DNA of 64,000 bases from Brevibacillus sp. JNUCC-41 (GTDB lineage: Bacteria > Bacillota > Bacilli > Bacillales > DSM-1321), in contig NZ_CP062163.1 of assembly GCF_014844095.1 (NCBI RefSeq), positions 2,885,501 to 2,949,500 on the forward strand. The letters are read 5' to 3'. Under the pieces are notes generated by a model. The model had not been told where the DNA came from. It saw only the letters and a program-made list of their open reading frames with translations, and did not search any database. Positions 24,834 through 34,600 of the stretch are shown here, piece after piece; the stretch's first letter is position 1, and each line of letters opens with the position of its first letter. A program made the position numbers and the translations under genes.

Positions 24834-24863
24834 TTGTTTTTTTAGGAATTTCCATGATATAAT
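24834..24863 (+). promoter_or_regulatory. Promoter of the cold-shock gene
   Basis: TTGTTT and TATAAT are 18 bases apart. Transcription would start near 24870, leaving a leader of about 120 bases before the cold-shock start codon, which is typical of cold-regulated csp messages. Confidence 0.55.
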
Positions 24864-24991
24864 ATAAGTAATTATTTTTGTTCGGAATAAGTTTGATAGA
24901 AGGATTTACTGTAATAGGATTCCTCTTGAAACATTATCCAGAACCAAAAATAGTAATAAAATGGATTTTTCCAAACACAGGAGGAACTATC

Positions 24992-25189
24992 ATGGTACAA
25001 GGTAAAGTAAAATGGTTTAACGCAGAAAAAGGTTTCGGTTTCATCGAAGTTGAAGGCCAAGACGATGTATTCGTACATTTCTCAGCTATCCAAGGCGAAG
25101 GCTTCAAAACGCTTGAAGAAGGCCAAGAAGTTTCTTTCGAAATCGAGCAAGGCGCTCGTGGACCACAAGCAGCTAACGTTCAAAAATAA
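24992..25189 (+). CDS. cspD: Cold-shock protein
   Basis: This 65-residue protein is a standard cold-shock domain with RNP1 KGFGFIEV and RNP2 VFVHFSAI, the single-strand RNA/DNA binding surface. It acts as an RNA chaperone at low temperature or in stationary phase. The exact Bacillus paralogue name (cspB, C or D) is uncertain. AGGAGG precedes the ATG; an in-frame upstream extension covers the untranslated leader and is not expected to be translated. A strong terminator follows. Confidence 0.93.
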
Positions 25190-25202
25190 TTGAACGCATA
25201 TA

Positions 25203-25236
25203 AAAAAAGACTCCGATTATGGAGTCTTTTTATTTT
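25203..25236. terminator. Terminator after the cold-shock gene
   Basis: AAAAAGACTCC and GGAGTCTTTTT form a stem, followed by TATTTTTC. It lies tail to tail with the small leftward membrane gene and could serve both. Confidence 0.85.
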
Positions 25237-26924: not shown

Positions 26925-29222
26925 TTAACTTGAACAGCTTTCGCAGGCATTGTCATATTCGGAAGAAGTCGAACGAACATAATACGTTGATTTCAATCCG
27001 CTTTCCCATGCCGTTAAATGTATGTCCAATAGAACCTTCGCTTTGATTGTATTGTGTACATACAGATTAAAGCTGATTGCTTGGTCAATATGGCGTTGGC
27101 GGGCTGCATTTTGCCTGATGCTTTCCAGTTGGTCCAAATTAAATCGCGTCTTTTTATAATATTCATACGTATTTGGCGTCAAGCCTGGAGCTGTCACCTT
27201 GAATTTGAAGTTTTTCTTTTCTTCGTAAAATTCAATTTCATACAAAGGATCGATTCCATCCGTGGAATTACCGATTTTAGCTGTCGAAGAATTCGGGGCA
27301 ATGGCCATTAAATAGCCATTACGGGTCCCGTGTCCATGCACGTCTGCTTTTAAATCCATCCATTTTTGATCTGTATAGTCACGCAGTTCGAAATAGTCCC
27401 CTGTATGCCAATCAGATCCTTCAAAATATGGGTATGAACCTTTTTCCTTAGCCAATTCATTGGATGCCTTGATTGTTAAGTAAGCGATCTTTTCGTATAA
27501 AGCATCTGCATAGTGAACAGCCTCATCGGATTCCCAATAAATATTCTGTGTGGCAAGTAAATGATGCCATCCAAACGTTCCTAAACCAATTGCCCGGTAA
27601 CGTTTGTTCGAGATGGATGCTTGTTTGACAGGAAGATTATTAACATCTATGACATTATCCAGCATGCGGATCTGAATGGGAATCAATCTTTCCAAAACAT
27701 CGCTGCCCACTGCCCGGGGCAAGTTAATGGATGAAAGGTTGCAGACAACGAAATCGCCGCTTTTACGAACCACAACAACATCTCCATCTTCTGTTTCATA
27801 TTCATCCGTGATTGTCGAAGGGCTTAAGTTTTGGGCAATCTCCGTGCAAAGGTTAGAGCAATAAATCATACCTTTATGCTTATTGGGATTCTTCCGATTC
27901 ACTTCATCGCGGTAGAACATATACGGTACGCCTTCTTCCAATTGAGAAATCATGATGCTTTTCATGATGTCCATCGCTTTGATTTTTTCAAAGCTATAGT
28001 TTGGAAGTGTGCCATTTTCTGCGGCCTCGACAGCAAGTGCATAATGATTCCTGAAGCTTCCTTCGCCTTTCTTCTCGTCATAAAGATCTTCAAGTGAAAA
28101 TCCAAGGGTTTGTTTAACGGTATGCGGATCGAAAAGATACCATTCTTTTCTGTCGCGTACAGCTTCCATGAATAAATCGGGTATGCATACGCCTGTAAAA
28201 ATATCATGGGCTTTTAATCTGTCATCCCCGTTTTGTGTCTTTAAATCGAGGAAGCTCATGATATCTTTATGCCAGGCATCCAAGTAAATCGCGATGGCAC
28301 CTTTACGTTGCCCCAATTGATCGACACTTACAGCTGTCTGGTTGAATAGTCGAATCCAGGGAGTCGTGCCGGAACTGTTTCCAGAGAAACCTCGGATATC
28401 AGAACCAAGCGATCGAACCTTACCGACGTAAAGACCTACTCCGCCGCCAAATTTAGATACTTTTGCTGCATCGTAGTTTGATAGGTAAATTCCGTCAATG
28501 GAATCTTCAATTGCGTCGATAAAGCAGGAGCTTAATTGTCCATGTGTTTTACCTGAATTGGAGAGTGTAGGAGTAGCAACGGTCATATAAAGATTGGACA
28601 TGGCCCAGTATGCTTCTTTAATAAGTTGCAGGCGGTGCTCCGTTTTTTCCAATCGCATGATTTCCATCGCGATGATCATGAAACGTTCTTGTGGCAGTTC
28701 GTAGACCTTGTCCTTTTGAGGGCGGGCCAGATAGCGGTCGTTCAATAAGTAGATGCCTATGTACGAGAATAATTTATCTTTTTCCGGATCGATCACCGAA
28801 CCCAATTCCTCAATTTCCGCTTTCGTATATGAAGATAGCAGTTCTGATTTATAAATAGGATAACGCTGACCTTCTGAAAGCTGGGAGAGTTCCGCGATCA
28901 GCTCATAGAATGGGCCATAACTCATGCCTTCATAGCCTCGATTGGCTTGTGCATCCCTATACATTGTATTCAACAGTTCTGCTGCAGCAACGAACGTCCA
29001 ATCCGGAGCATCGATATCCACACTTTCAAGAGCGAGCTGAATCAGTTTTTTTGATGCCTGTTCTTCGGTTGAGTCACTTTTGCGATCTAGCCATTTTGTA
29101 AAACGCTTTTTGAACTTTTCCATATCGAGATGGCCTTCGAATTCCTTTGATAACATCTCGAGCTGGACGGACTTCGCTTCTGTGTCATTTTCACTTATGG
29201 TAGAGTTATATGTTTGAGTCAT
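26925..29222 (-). CDS. nrdA: Class I ribonucleoside-diphosphate reductase alpha subunit
   Basis: This 765-residue catalytic subunit converts NDPs to dNDPs. Visible features include the active-site segment SSCFIDAIEDSIDGIY, the NLSSINLPR and LCTEI motifs, MAIAPNSSTAKIGNSTDGIDP, and a C-terminal CESCSS dithiol that is reduced by thioredoxin-type donors. No ATP-cone is apparent at the N-terminus. The ATG at 29222 follows AAGGAGG; an in-frame upstream ATG falls inside the riboswitch terminator and is not a credible start. nrdE would be an equally defensible name. Confidence 0.93.
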   Translation of the reverse strand: MTQTYNSTISENDTEAKSVQLEMLSKEFEGHLDMEKFKKRFTKWLDRKSDSTEEQASKKLIQLALESVDIDAPDWTFVAAAELLNTMYRDAQANRGYEGMSYGPFYELIAELSQLSEGQRYPIYKSELLSSYTKAEIEELGSVIDPEKDKLFSYIGIYLLNDRYLARPQKDKVYELPQERFMIIAMEIMRLEKTEHRLQLIKEAYWAMSNLYMTVATPTLSNSGKTHGQLSSCFIDAIEDSIDGIYLSNYDAAKVSKFGGGVGLYVGKVRSLGSDIRGFSGNSSGTTPWIRLFNQTAVSVDQLGQRKGAIAIYLDAWHKDIMSFLDLKTQNGDDRLKAHDIFTGVCIPDLFMEAVRDRKEWYLFDPHTVKQTLGFSLEDLYDEKKGEGSFRNHYALAVEAAENGTLPNYSFEKIKAMDIMKSIMISQLEEGVPYMFYRDEVNRKNPNKHKGMIYCSNLCTEIAQNLSPSTITDEYETEDGDVVVVRKSGDFVVCNLSSINLPRAVGSDVLERLIPIQIRMLDNVIDVNNLPVKQASISNKRYRAIGLGTFGWHHLLATQNIYWESDEAVHYADALYEKIAYLTIKASNELAKEKGSYPYFEGSDWHTGDYFELRDYTDQKWMDLKADVHGHGTRNGYLMAIAPNSSTAKIGNSTDGIDPLYEIEFYEEKKNFKFKVTAPGLTPNTYEYYKKTRFNLDQLESIRQNAARQRHIDQAISFNLYVHNTIKAKVLLDIHLTAWESGLKSTYYVRSTSSEYDNACESCSS

Positions 29223-29250
29223 TAATAATCCTCCTTGTTGACTTCCTTCT

Positions 29251-29284
29251 AAAATAAAAAAACCGCCCAATGAATTGAGCGGAT
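29251..29284 (-). terminator. Riboswitch-controlled terminator upstream of nrdA
   Basis: Read leftward, CCGCTCAA-TTCA-TTGGGCGG is followed by TTTTTTTATTTT, a strong intrinsic terminator 30 bases before the nrdA start. It lies downstream of the cobalamin aptamer, so B12 binding probably favours it. Confidence 0.85.
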
Positions 29285-29335: not shown

Positions 29336-29373
29336 CATCATCTCAATCCCCGAAGAATAAGAAACGTGAAAAA

Positions 29374-29530
29374 TTCAAGGCAGGTCTCCTGACTCATGAT
29401 CATCCTACTTTGAGTCCTTCCCGTATAGAGAGCTATACAGTGGGTTTCTCATTTCGTCACATTTACAGTTGCGGGGACAGTTCCGGGTTTACACCGGATT
29501 CCCTTTTCAGCCATCACTGGCACCTTGGAT
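29374..29530 (-). promoter_or_regulatory. Cobalamin (B12) riboswitch upstream of nrdAB-flavodoxin
   Basis: On the leftward strand the order is GGTGCC, GGGAATCCGGTGTAAACCCGG, CTGTCCCCGCAACTGTAA, CCCACTG, a variable hairpin, GGGAAGG and finally GAGTCAGGAGACCTGCC. These are the conserved blocks of the cobalamin riboswitch, including the B12 box. A terminator follows before nrdA. In families where this arrangement is known, B12 turns off the class I enzyme while a B12-dependent class II enzyme takes over. Confidence 0.95.
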
Positions 29531-29541
29531 TATAAAAAATT

Positions 29542-29583
29542 CTATATATAGTTATTGGTAATGTTTATGTAATCAATATCTAG
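29542..29583. promoter_or_regulatory. Pair of candidate NrdR boxes
   Basis: CTATATATAG (29542-29551) and CAATATCTAG (29574-29583) both fit the NrdR-box core CWATATNTWG and are 32 bases apart, close to the roughly three helical turns usual for NrdR site pairs. They sit upstream of the riboswitch, where the nrd promoter is expected. Confidence 0.5.
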
Positions 29584-32828: not shown

Positions 32829-33760
32829 ATGAAAATGGGGGTTACTCCTATGAATAAGAGCGAGAAAAGAACGAAACTGCTGGAAAAGGTTGAGAATCAT
32901 TTAAGACTGACTGCAAGGAATTTAGTGAAATTCGATACAATCCAAGAAACATTGGATTTTACGGTGGAATCATTTCAATTGGAATTTTCGTGGGACTTTG
33001 TGGCGATCGTATTGAGAGGGGATGATCGTTTGTATCCAAAAGTATGGAAAGGCGGTTCGCTGCATTTTGCTGATTCTTTTCCCATTCACCTAGGTGAATG
33101 TTCCCCGGAGATTCTCGAAGAAGAGGTAAAGGATAGTTACATAACTTAATTGTTTGAAGAGAAAATAGAAGATAAGCTAAATAGTCGAATATGCGACATT
33201 GATGAACAATGATTTATACAGGCCACACCGGATTGCCGTTTTGAAACTGGAAGAGGGTCACTTACTGCCCATTCGAACCTGATTGAAAGTGAAGCGGAAA
33301 AAGCCTCGGAATGGGATCATATGAAAGAACAGCTTTATCTTAAATATAAAGAAATCATCGTGACAAAAATGGGATGATATGCTGATATTGATGATACCGG
33401 TGAAAAGGGAAAATAAACTCGCATCCTCATACTGGGAAGGGATAAGTCTTTACCTTAGTGAATATCCGATATTAAAGAAGCTTTCCCTGACGATATTATG
33501 GGGGTGGTACCACCAATAACCTGAAGGATTATTATGCCTACAAATAGGCCATGCATGCTCATAATGTTCCCGAAATGGATTCCCGAAAAAAGTCTTGGCC
33601 ATTTGACGAATTGGGCTCCTGCACGCTATTGAATGACCTGAAAGACCCTGTACTTGCCGAGTTATTACTTAAGAAATATTTGCCCAGTTGATGGAAGACC
33701 AAACGGGAAGCGGAGTAGCGCTTATAAACTGATGATTTGAATCGAGCCAGCTATATTCCG
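32829..33760 (+). pseudogene. Decayed regulator gene (GAF-like, possible PucR/CdaR family)
   Basis: An N-terminal 106-residue piece (ENHLRLTARNLVKFDTIQETLDF, GAF-like) ends at a stop, and related coding sequence continues in broken frames. Around 33590-33690 the frame reads KSWPFDELGSCTLLNDLKDP then AELLLKKYLPS, which resembles the FDELG-LL segment before the PucR helix-turn-helix. A degraded LHIHFT follows. Stops and frame changes occur at least five times, so no functional protein is expected. Family assignment is tentative; the decay is clear. Confidence 0.5.
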
Positions 33761-33922: not shown

Positions 33923-34117
33923 CTATTCCTTATCAATGATACTGGATTTACATTTAGGACATGTCACTTCTTTATAATGCTTGAACCTGATTTTTCGAAG
34001 GTCGCTTCTGGTCAACATTGCGAATACATTATACCTTGTGCCGCATGCACAAGTATTTTTATCTTTAACTATGTGTCTCTCATCTGTAGTAGCAGAATAA
34101 ATGGTTGGAAAAAACAT
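33923..34117 (-). CDS. 64-residue zinc-ribbon-like protein under c-di-GMP riboswitch control
   Basis: A leftward 64-residue protein starts MFFPTIYSATTDERHIV and has two cysteine pairs, CAC near residue 22 and CPKC near residue 54, suggesting one zinc site. There is no signal peptide or long hydrophobic helix. AGGAGGG precedes the ATG. About 70-170 bases upstream lies a cyclic-di-GMP-I riboswitch whose 5' arm can pair with sequence just before this RBS. The gene is therefore likely switched by c-di-GMP. I do not recognise a function. Confidence 0.75.
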   Translation of the reverse strand: MFFPTIYSATTDERHIVKDKNTCACGTRYNVFAMLTRSDLRKIRFKHYKEVTCPKCKSSIIDKE

Positions 34118-34137
34118 ATATAACCCTCCTATTTTTA

Positions 34138-34281
34138 ATTTTAGGCAAATTAAAAAGGGGCAATTGATAATAAAGTGATCCATTCAAGAAAAATCTTGGC
34201 AGCCCGGCTGCCATGACAACCAAGTTGTTGTGTTAGGCCCGTGGCTTTGCGTCTTTTACTTTCATAAAATTTGCCTAAAAT
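34138..34281 (-). repeat. 14-base inverted repeat linking riboswitch and RBS region
   Basis: ATTTTAGGCAAATT (34138-34151) and AATTTGCCTAAAAT (34268-34281) are perfect complements. The distal arm overlaps the 5' end of the aptamer, including its GGCAAA, and the proximal arm lies about 10 bases upstream of the AGGAGGG. Pairing would exclude aptamer folding. Confidence 0.7.
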
Positions 34282-34285
34282 AATC
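34190..34285 (-). promoter_or_regulatory. Cyclic-di-GMP-I (GEMM-I) riboswitch
   Basis: Leftward, GGCAAA, a short stem with a GAAA loop (TTTTAT-GAAA-GTAAAA), then GACGCAAAGCCACGGGCCTA, a second hairpin (ACAAC/GTTGT) and ATGGCAGCCGGGCTGCC appear in order. These are the conserved GEMM-I blocks, including the GACGCAAAGCC core and the tetraloop. The next gene leftward is the 64-residue zinc-ribbon protein. Confidence 0.92.
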
Positions 34286-34600
34286 TTAACATAAAATTTG
34301 ATGCATTATGAAGTGTTTATGGCTGCGGCCAACCTTCCCCTTTTATTAAGTATCAACAGCAATCACCGGGATTGTCCAAATATAGAAGGAAAATAGAGAA
34401 GAAAGGTTTGGCACGCTATGTACCTATAGTTCGGAAAACCATGTTCAGCAGCTGGTTTCCAATATTCCTTTTTCATGTGTGCAGGACCCATGTTCGTTTT
34501 TGGCCTCACTGCCTGTATCGGAATACGACCGAAATGAAATCCAGTTCCAGAAGTATCCAGAACTACAGCTGTATGAGCATTAAACATGAGAAAGCCTGAT
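34286..34600. other. Region upstream of the riboswitch with no clear gene
   Basis: Frames of 75-80 codons are open on both strands here, but neither has an RBS, and the leftward one begins inside the MFS terminator. I see no convincing gene. The promoter of the riboswitch transcript must lie at about 34290-34340. Confidence 0.5.

Follow-up and report, generated by a model that had tools for sequence, protein, structure and literature searches.

How would a cell use a c-di-GMP riboswitch that stands before the gene for a 64-residue protein, and in which direction would the ligand switch it? The question is raised by positions 33923-34285 of a 64,000-nucleotide stretch of DNA, here called the window. 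The reading that we favor, at a probability of roughly 70%, is that the leader is a translational c-di-GMP-I OFF switch, that the microprotein is a flagellar or chemotaxis accessory of the motile state at low c-di-GMP, and that the SinI genes of the same genome are switched oppositely.

A c-di-GMP-I aptamer before a small four-cysteine gene

The first-pass annotation of this DNA had claimed a GEMM-I core and proposed a covariance search. The Rfam model for c-di-GMP-I (GEMM-I), RF01051, matched 34285-34195 on the minus strand with 77.9 bits (E=1.3e-13) over its full length (model positions 1-87 of 87), compared with a gathering score of 35 bits, which bears the claim out. Downstream on the same strand follow a Shine-Dalgarno (SD) sequence, AGGAGGG (34124..34130), and the gene itself, supported by homologues and alignments (33923..34117, stop codon included). 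The aptamer (34195..34285) thus lies in the leader of a gene on its own strand, an arrangement that is conserved in relatives, and judged by its sequence the element upstream of the 64-aa ORF is a genuine c-di-GMP-I riboswitch.

The encoded microprotein carries the motif C23xC25...C53xxC56. All four cysteines, and with them the two CxC/CxxC knuckles, are invariant in one alignment (A2), and a single distant copy in another (A1) has Ser at the first Cys position. The invariant residues are P4, H15-I-V-K-D19, C23xC25G, F32, I43, F45 and C53xxC56. The protein had been described as a zinc ribbon, a claim that stands for the motif and fails for the family: no model scored over its cut-off in Pfam (best 15.1 vs 27 bits) or NCBIfam (best 15.9 vs 87 bits), and neither a PDB sequence search nor a Foldseek search with an AlphaFold2 model (pLDDT 76.5) returned a family or fold match. 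"Zinc ribbon" is therefore used here as a motif-level label, and the cysteines may bind zinc.

Of 150 relatives, 36 have a homologue; almost all of these belong to Peribacillus, the genus of the soil bacterium under study, and most carriers have an RF01051 match directly upstream of the gene, down to about 51% protein identity. The combination of riboswitch and homologue also occurs in Metabacillus fastidiosus, Bacillus canaveralius and others. The suspected link between riboswitch and small gene is thus conserved across Peribacillus and in a few relatives. A phage collection held no homologues and a plasmid search returned one distant Peribacillus copy, so that this is not obviously a mobile-element gene. 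Among the papers searched, none dealt with the microprotein or with the CheY-linked switch subtype discussed below. Four genomes (G011, G014, G018 and G034; e.g., G011:C28:215716-215856) hold a second microprotein copy, 33-34% identical, just upstream of the riboswitch-controlled one and with no riboswitch match of its own.

Other features of the window include a Cobalamin riboswitch (29362-29542, minus strand, 122.6 bits) before a gene for a ribonucleotide-reductase-like large subunit with a CESC tail (26925-29270, minus strand); B12 control of such an enzyme, of class I, would make sense if a second one that depends on B12 were encoded elsewhere. A gene for a 777-aa regulator-like protein (32829-33750, plus strand) has decayed through stops and frameshifts and is intact in P. 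butanolivorans (L071:6529-8862). An Rfam match to the cspA thermoregulator (24858-25234, plus strand) lies barely above the cut-off on a cold-shock gene.

Conserved arms and a shared switch subtype

The aptamer 5' strand, ATTTTAGGCAAATT (34268..34281, minus strand), is exactly complementary over 14 bases to a downstream segment, AATTTGCCTAAAAT (34138..34151, minus strand), and when the leader was shuffled 400 times with dinucleotides preserved, a perfect 14-bp helix arose only once. The 14-base arms noted earlier are therefore real as a pairing, but the conserved and effective helix is shorter, about 9 bp (AGGCAAAUU/AAUUUGCCU). Among 31 distinct leaders of the microprotein gene, which have diverged in the linker between the arms, the only invariant arm parts are GGCAAAUU and [A/G]UUUGCC (conserved parts GGCAAATT and AATTTGCCT). 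In every one of them GGCAAAUUUUA marks the 5' side of the aptamer, and [A/G]UUUGCC, or [AG]TTTGCC in the DNA, stands shortly 5' of the SD. Among 71 other GEMM-I leaders UUUUA is present in only four, and the same four also have AUUUGCC.

An extended -10 promoter element, TGTTAAGAT (34283..34291, minus strand), is likewise found in TGnTAnnAT-like form in all 31 leaders, where it would put the start of transcription 0-3 bases before GGCAAA. From the -10 spacing, the start in the window is predicted near 34276, the first base of the aptamer core, and about 9 of the 14 arm bases are therefore probably in the RNA, with the remainder at or upstream of the start. Ligand binding also constrains the aptamer strand of the long-range helix, so covariation is no guide to this helix.

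A pattern for the special aptamer core was run on 397 genomes of the order and matched in 30 of these, from 17 genera; a reversed control pattern gave 0 matches. Outside the genus, the switch is followed by a stand-alone CheY-like receiver in 20 of the 22 loci examined, and 14 of these 20 have the exact UUUGCC arm; the other two loci (G357 and G039) hold the microprotein. Four receiver ORFs chosen as representatives all pass Pfam Response_reg; three are from the 20 loci. Furthermore, additional CheY-type loci are present within Peribacillus genomes that encode the microprotein too. The genome under study has its canonical cheY as a separate copy (52% identity to the query).

A modelled SD-masking hairpin and the predicted sign of the switch

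In the modelled folds, a local hairpin (34124..34160, minus strand) takes its 5' strand and loop from the UUUGCC arm. It consists of the anti-SD segment CCCCUUUUU with AAUUU, the loop GCCUA, and AAAUUAAAAA with the SD. The outer part of the hairpin is a pyrimidine run (CCCCUUUU, CUCCUUUU, UCUCUUUC and so on) that pairs with the SD. The arm, being complementary to the aptamer 5' strand as well, thus has two partners. With the long-range fold enforced, the mean unpaired probability of the SD was 0.88, compared with 0.17 in the aptamer fold, and the direction was the same in 31 of 31 leaders. The modelling thus gives two folds that exclude each other, one exposing the SD and the other masking it, and together with the retention of both arms in every leader this supports the alternative pairing that the first-pass annotation had suggested. 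The two folds lie within a few kcal/mol of each other. When transcripts are trimmed to the predicted start they are nearly isoenergetic, with a value of +1.5 kcal/mol for the long-range fold in the leader of the window, and of -3.4 kcal/mol when the bases upstream of the predicted start are included.

Folding energy alone is no evidence for the hairpin, since shuffled platforms of equal composition likewise mask the SD. We therefore consider an arm-swap test, in which hairpin arms were exchanged between species and the pairing strengths of own and swapped arms compared. Own arms paired better over all 36 leaders of the ZnR (microprotein) and CheY types (p=0.00015), over the CheY leaders (p=0.001) and with one leader per lineage (p=0.0026). 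The ZnR leaders alone gave p=0.12, and other arm boundaries or subsets p=0.01-0.09. Because of this weak ZnR signal and the behavior of the shuffles, the case for the hairpin comes mainly from the CheY leaders, and the test supports co-evolution of its arms over all leaders of the subtype together, but not in the microprotein leaders taken by themselves.

These observations suggest the following mechanism. When c-di-GMP is scarce, the first bases of the mRNA, AGGCAAAUU in the aptamer 5' strand, would pair with AAUUUGCCU just 5' of the ribosome-binding site, and this long-range helix would open the local anti-SD hairpin and permit translation of the microprotein. When c-di-GMP is bound, the 5' strand would be kept in the aptamer, the freed AAUUU strand would close the hairpin, and the CCCCUU segment would cover the SD and stop translation. 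The location of the second arm inside the anti-SD hairpin, which the first-pass annotation had not noted, is what predicts that c-di-GMP turns the switch OFF, and as a prediction from the modelled folds the translational OFF mechanism is well supported. One would expect AAUUUGCC to be needed for expression without ligand, and CCCC for repression at high c-di-GMP. In keeping with this model, a leader that has lost its aptamer is found in Bacillus dakarensis (L083), where no Rfam match precedes the microprotein homologue and the -10 element, TTTTAGGCAAA, CCTTTCCTAATTTGCCTAA and AAGAAAGG, which include both arms and the hairpin, are retained 5' of the gene. Under the OFF-switch model such a leader would be locked ON.

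The sign could be reversed if another pairing masked the SD in the free state and the ligand released it, as is predicted for the SinI leaders of the same genome. At least the SinI-a type leaders have such a platform, which makes translational ON switches plausible in this organism, but in the microprotein leader the aptamer 3' strand does not include the strand that masks the SD, and the conserved arm, a match to the aptamer 5' strand, exposes the SD by its pairing in 31 of 31 models. We therefore regard a translational ON switch as improbable. A transcriptional attenuator would also make c-di-GMP an activator, with the aptamer 3' half (GGCAGCCGGGCUGCC) and the AAGAUUUUU that follows it forming an intrinsic terminator when no ligand is bound. 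It was suggested by a scan of the leader for intrinsic terminators, whose sole match, a terminator-like stem at 34213-34197 (minus strand), lies inside the aptamer. The letters of this stem, however, belong to the aptamer consensus, and its discontinuous U-run is not preserved in relatives (AAGAUAUAUUC, AAGUUUAUCCCC, GGAUCUAUUUUC), whereas the downstream arm and the hairpin are kept. The candidate terminator was rejected, and we consider attenuation very improbable.

Motility, SinI and a putative c-di-GMP regulon

The most likely role of the microprotein, as far as genomic associations can tell, is that of a motility or chemotaxis component repressed by c-di-GMP, which would make it part of the swim-or-stick decision. 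A role in motility or biofilm decisions had been raised from the sequence of the window, and three associations favor it: the switch subtype shared with CheY-like receivers, the flagellar and chemotaxis neighbours of homologues that lack the switch, and the riboswitches before SinI genes in the same genome. In several genomes (G003, G005, G009, G010, G015, G020, G030 and G032) switch-less homologues adjoin hpf, either by itself or followed by fliT-fliS or fliD, and these hpf-side copies are mostly near a sinR/GEMM-I-sinI pair. Another is located between a comFA-like gene and comFC-yvyF-flgM-flgK (L085), and yet another beside cheW (L031). There are about three independent placements by flagellar or chemotaxis genes. 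Two other placements (L032 and L084) have no flagellar or chemotactic neighbour, and no sigma-D-like promoter was found upstream of the switch-less homologues.

The shared switch and the neighbours could also be products of leader shuffling only, with the microprotein acting in sporulation or another matter unrelated to motility. Within the window the gene has no flagellar neighbours and is flanked by metabolic or transport genes, and elsewhere in the genus GEMM-I switches precede Spo0E-like phosphatases as well as SinI. Three separate flagellar or chemotaxis placements and the CheY-type switch nevertheless point to motility, and we consider an unrelated role unlikely. In the GEMM-I switches before Spo0E-like phosphatases (L042, with a Pfam score of 51.2 bits, and L045) the strand that masks the SD shares bases with the aptamer 3' end, so that c-di-GMP is predicted to turn them ON. 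Some Peribacillus genomes (G019, G010 and G032) have 11-17 c-di-GMP-I riboswitches, several of which are located before terminator-like hairpins and other genes.

The genome under study contains four GGDEF proteins and exactly three GEMM-I riboswitches, which precede the microprotein gene and two SinI genes (Pfam scores of 41.7 and 43.6 bits, cut-off 31.4). The GEMM-I-SinI arrangement recurs through the frigoritolerans/simplex clade, and a sinR-like gene (81% identical to the query) and fliS are located beside SinI-a. What pairs with GUAUUUUAGG over the SD in SinI-a leaders is the 3' end of the aptamer itself, GCCUGAAAUAC, so the ligand should switch SinI-a ON. The SinI leaders are thus predicted to be ON-type platforms, clearly for SinI-a and less clearly for SinI-b.

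One hypothesis, to which we would give an even chance, is that in Peribacillus a single ligand acts through riboswitches of opposite sign, turning SinI, and with it the biofilm matrix, ON and a previously undescribed family of motility microproteins OFF. The OFF subtype would then be an old module spread across many genera of the Bacillales, whose usual client is a CheY paralogue that was exchanged for the microprotein in Peribacillus. To our knowledge, direct links from c-di-GMP to the SinI/SinR biofilm switch or to chemotaxis are scarce in Gram-positive spore-formers, and a literature search found few papers on them. If the hypothesis is correct, a single signal would govern both swimming and sticking in this genome through a riboswitch regulon of three genes, an unnamed microprotein family would gain a first testable function as a motility or chemotaxis accessory, and the CheY-linked subtype, present in many genera, could be tested in genetically tractable species.

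The leader resembles RF01051 in its 5' position, in matching the whole model above the cut-off and in its canonical core of GGCAAA, GACGCAAAGCC and AGCCGGGCUGCC, but differs in its platform, a conserved AAUUUGCCU anti-aptamer arm within an anti-SD hairpin, and in controlling a gene from a family without known function. CheY-like receivers (PF00072) are clients of the same switch subtype as the microprotein, and the SinI anti-repressor (PF08671) belongs to the same riboswitch regulon, yet neither is homologous to it. Bacillus methanolicus MGA3 has an annotated c-di-GMP riboswitch upstream of sinI, the position also taken by the other two switches of this genome; that annotation stems from RNA-seq, and its account of the riboswitch describes neither a partner of opposite sign nor a microprotein (PMC4342826). 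Bc1, a c-di-GMP-I riboswitch of the Bacillus cereus group, works through a double terminator (PMC11218506), whereas the microprotein leader has no conserved terminator and a predicted translational platform. These are all c-di-GMP riboswitches of Bacilli, and in the B. cereus group an "on" switch precedes cbpA and an "off" switch precedes an MCP gene (PMC7793685), the latter a functional parallel, before a chemotaxis gene, to the OFF switch proposed here.
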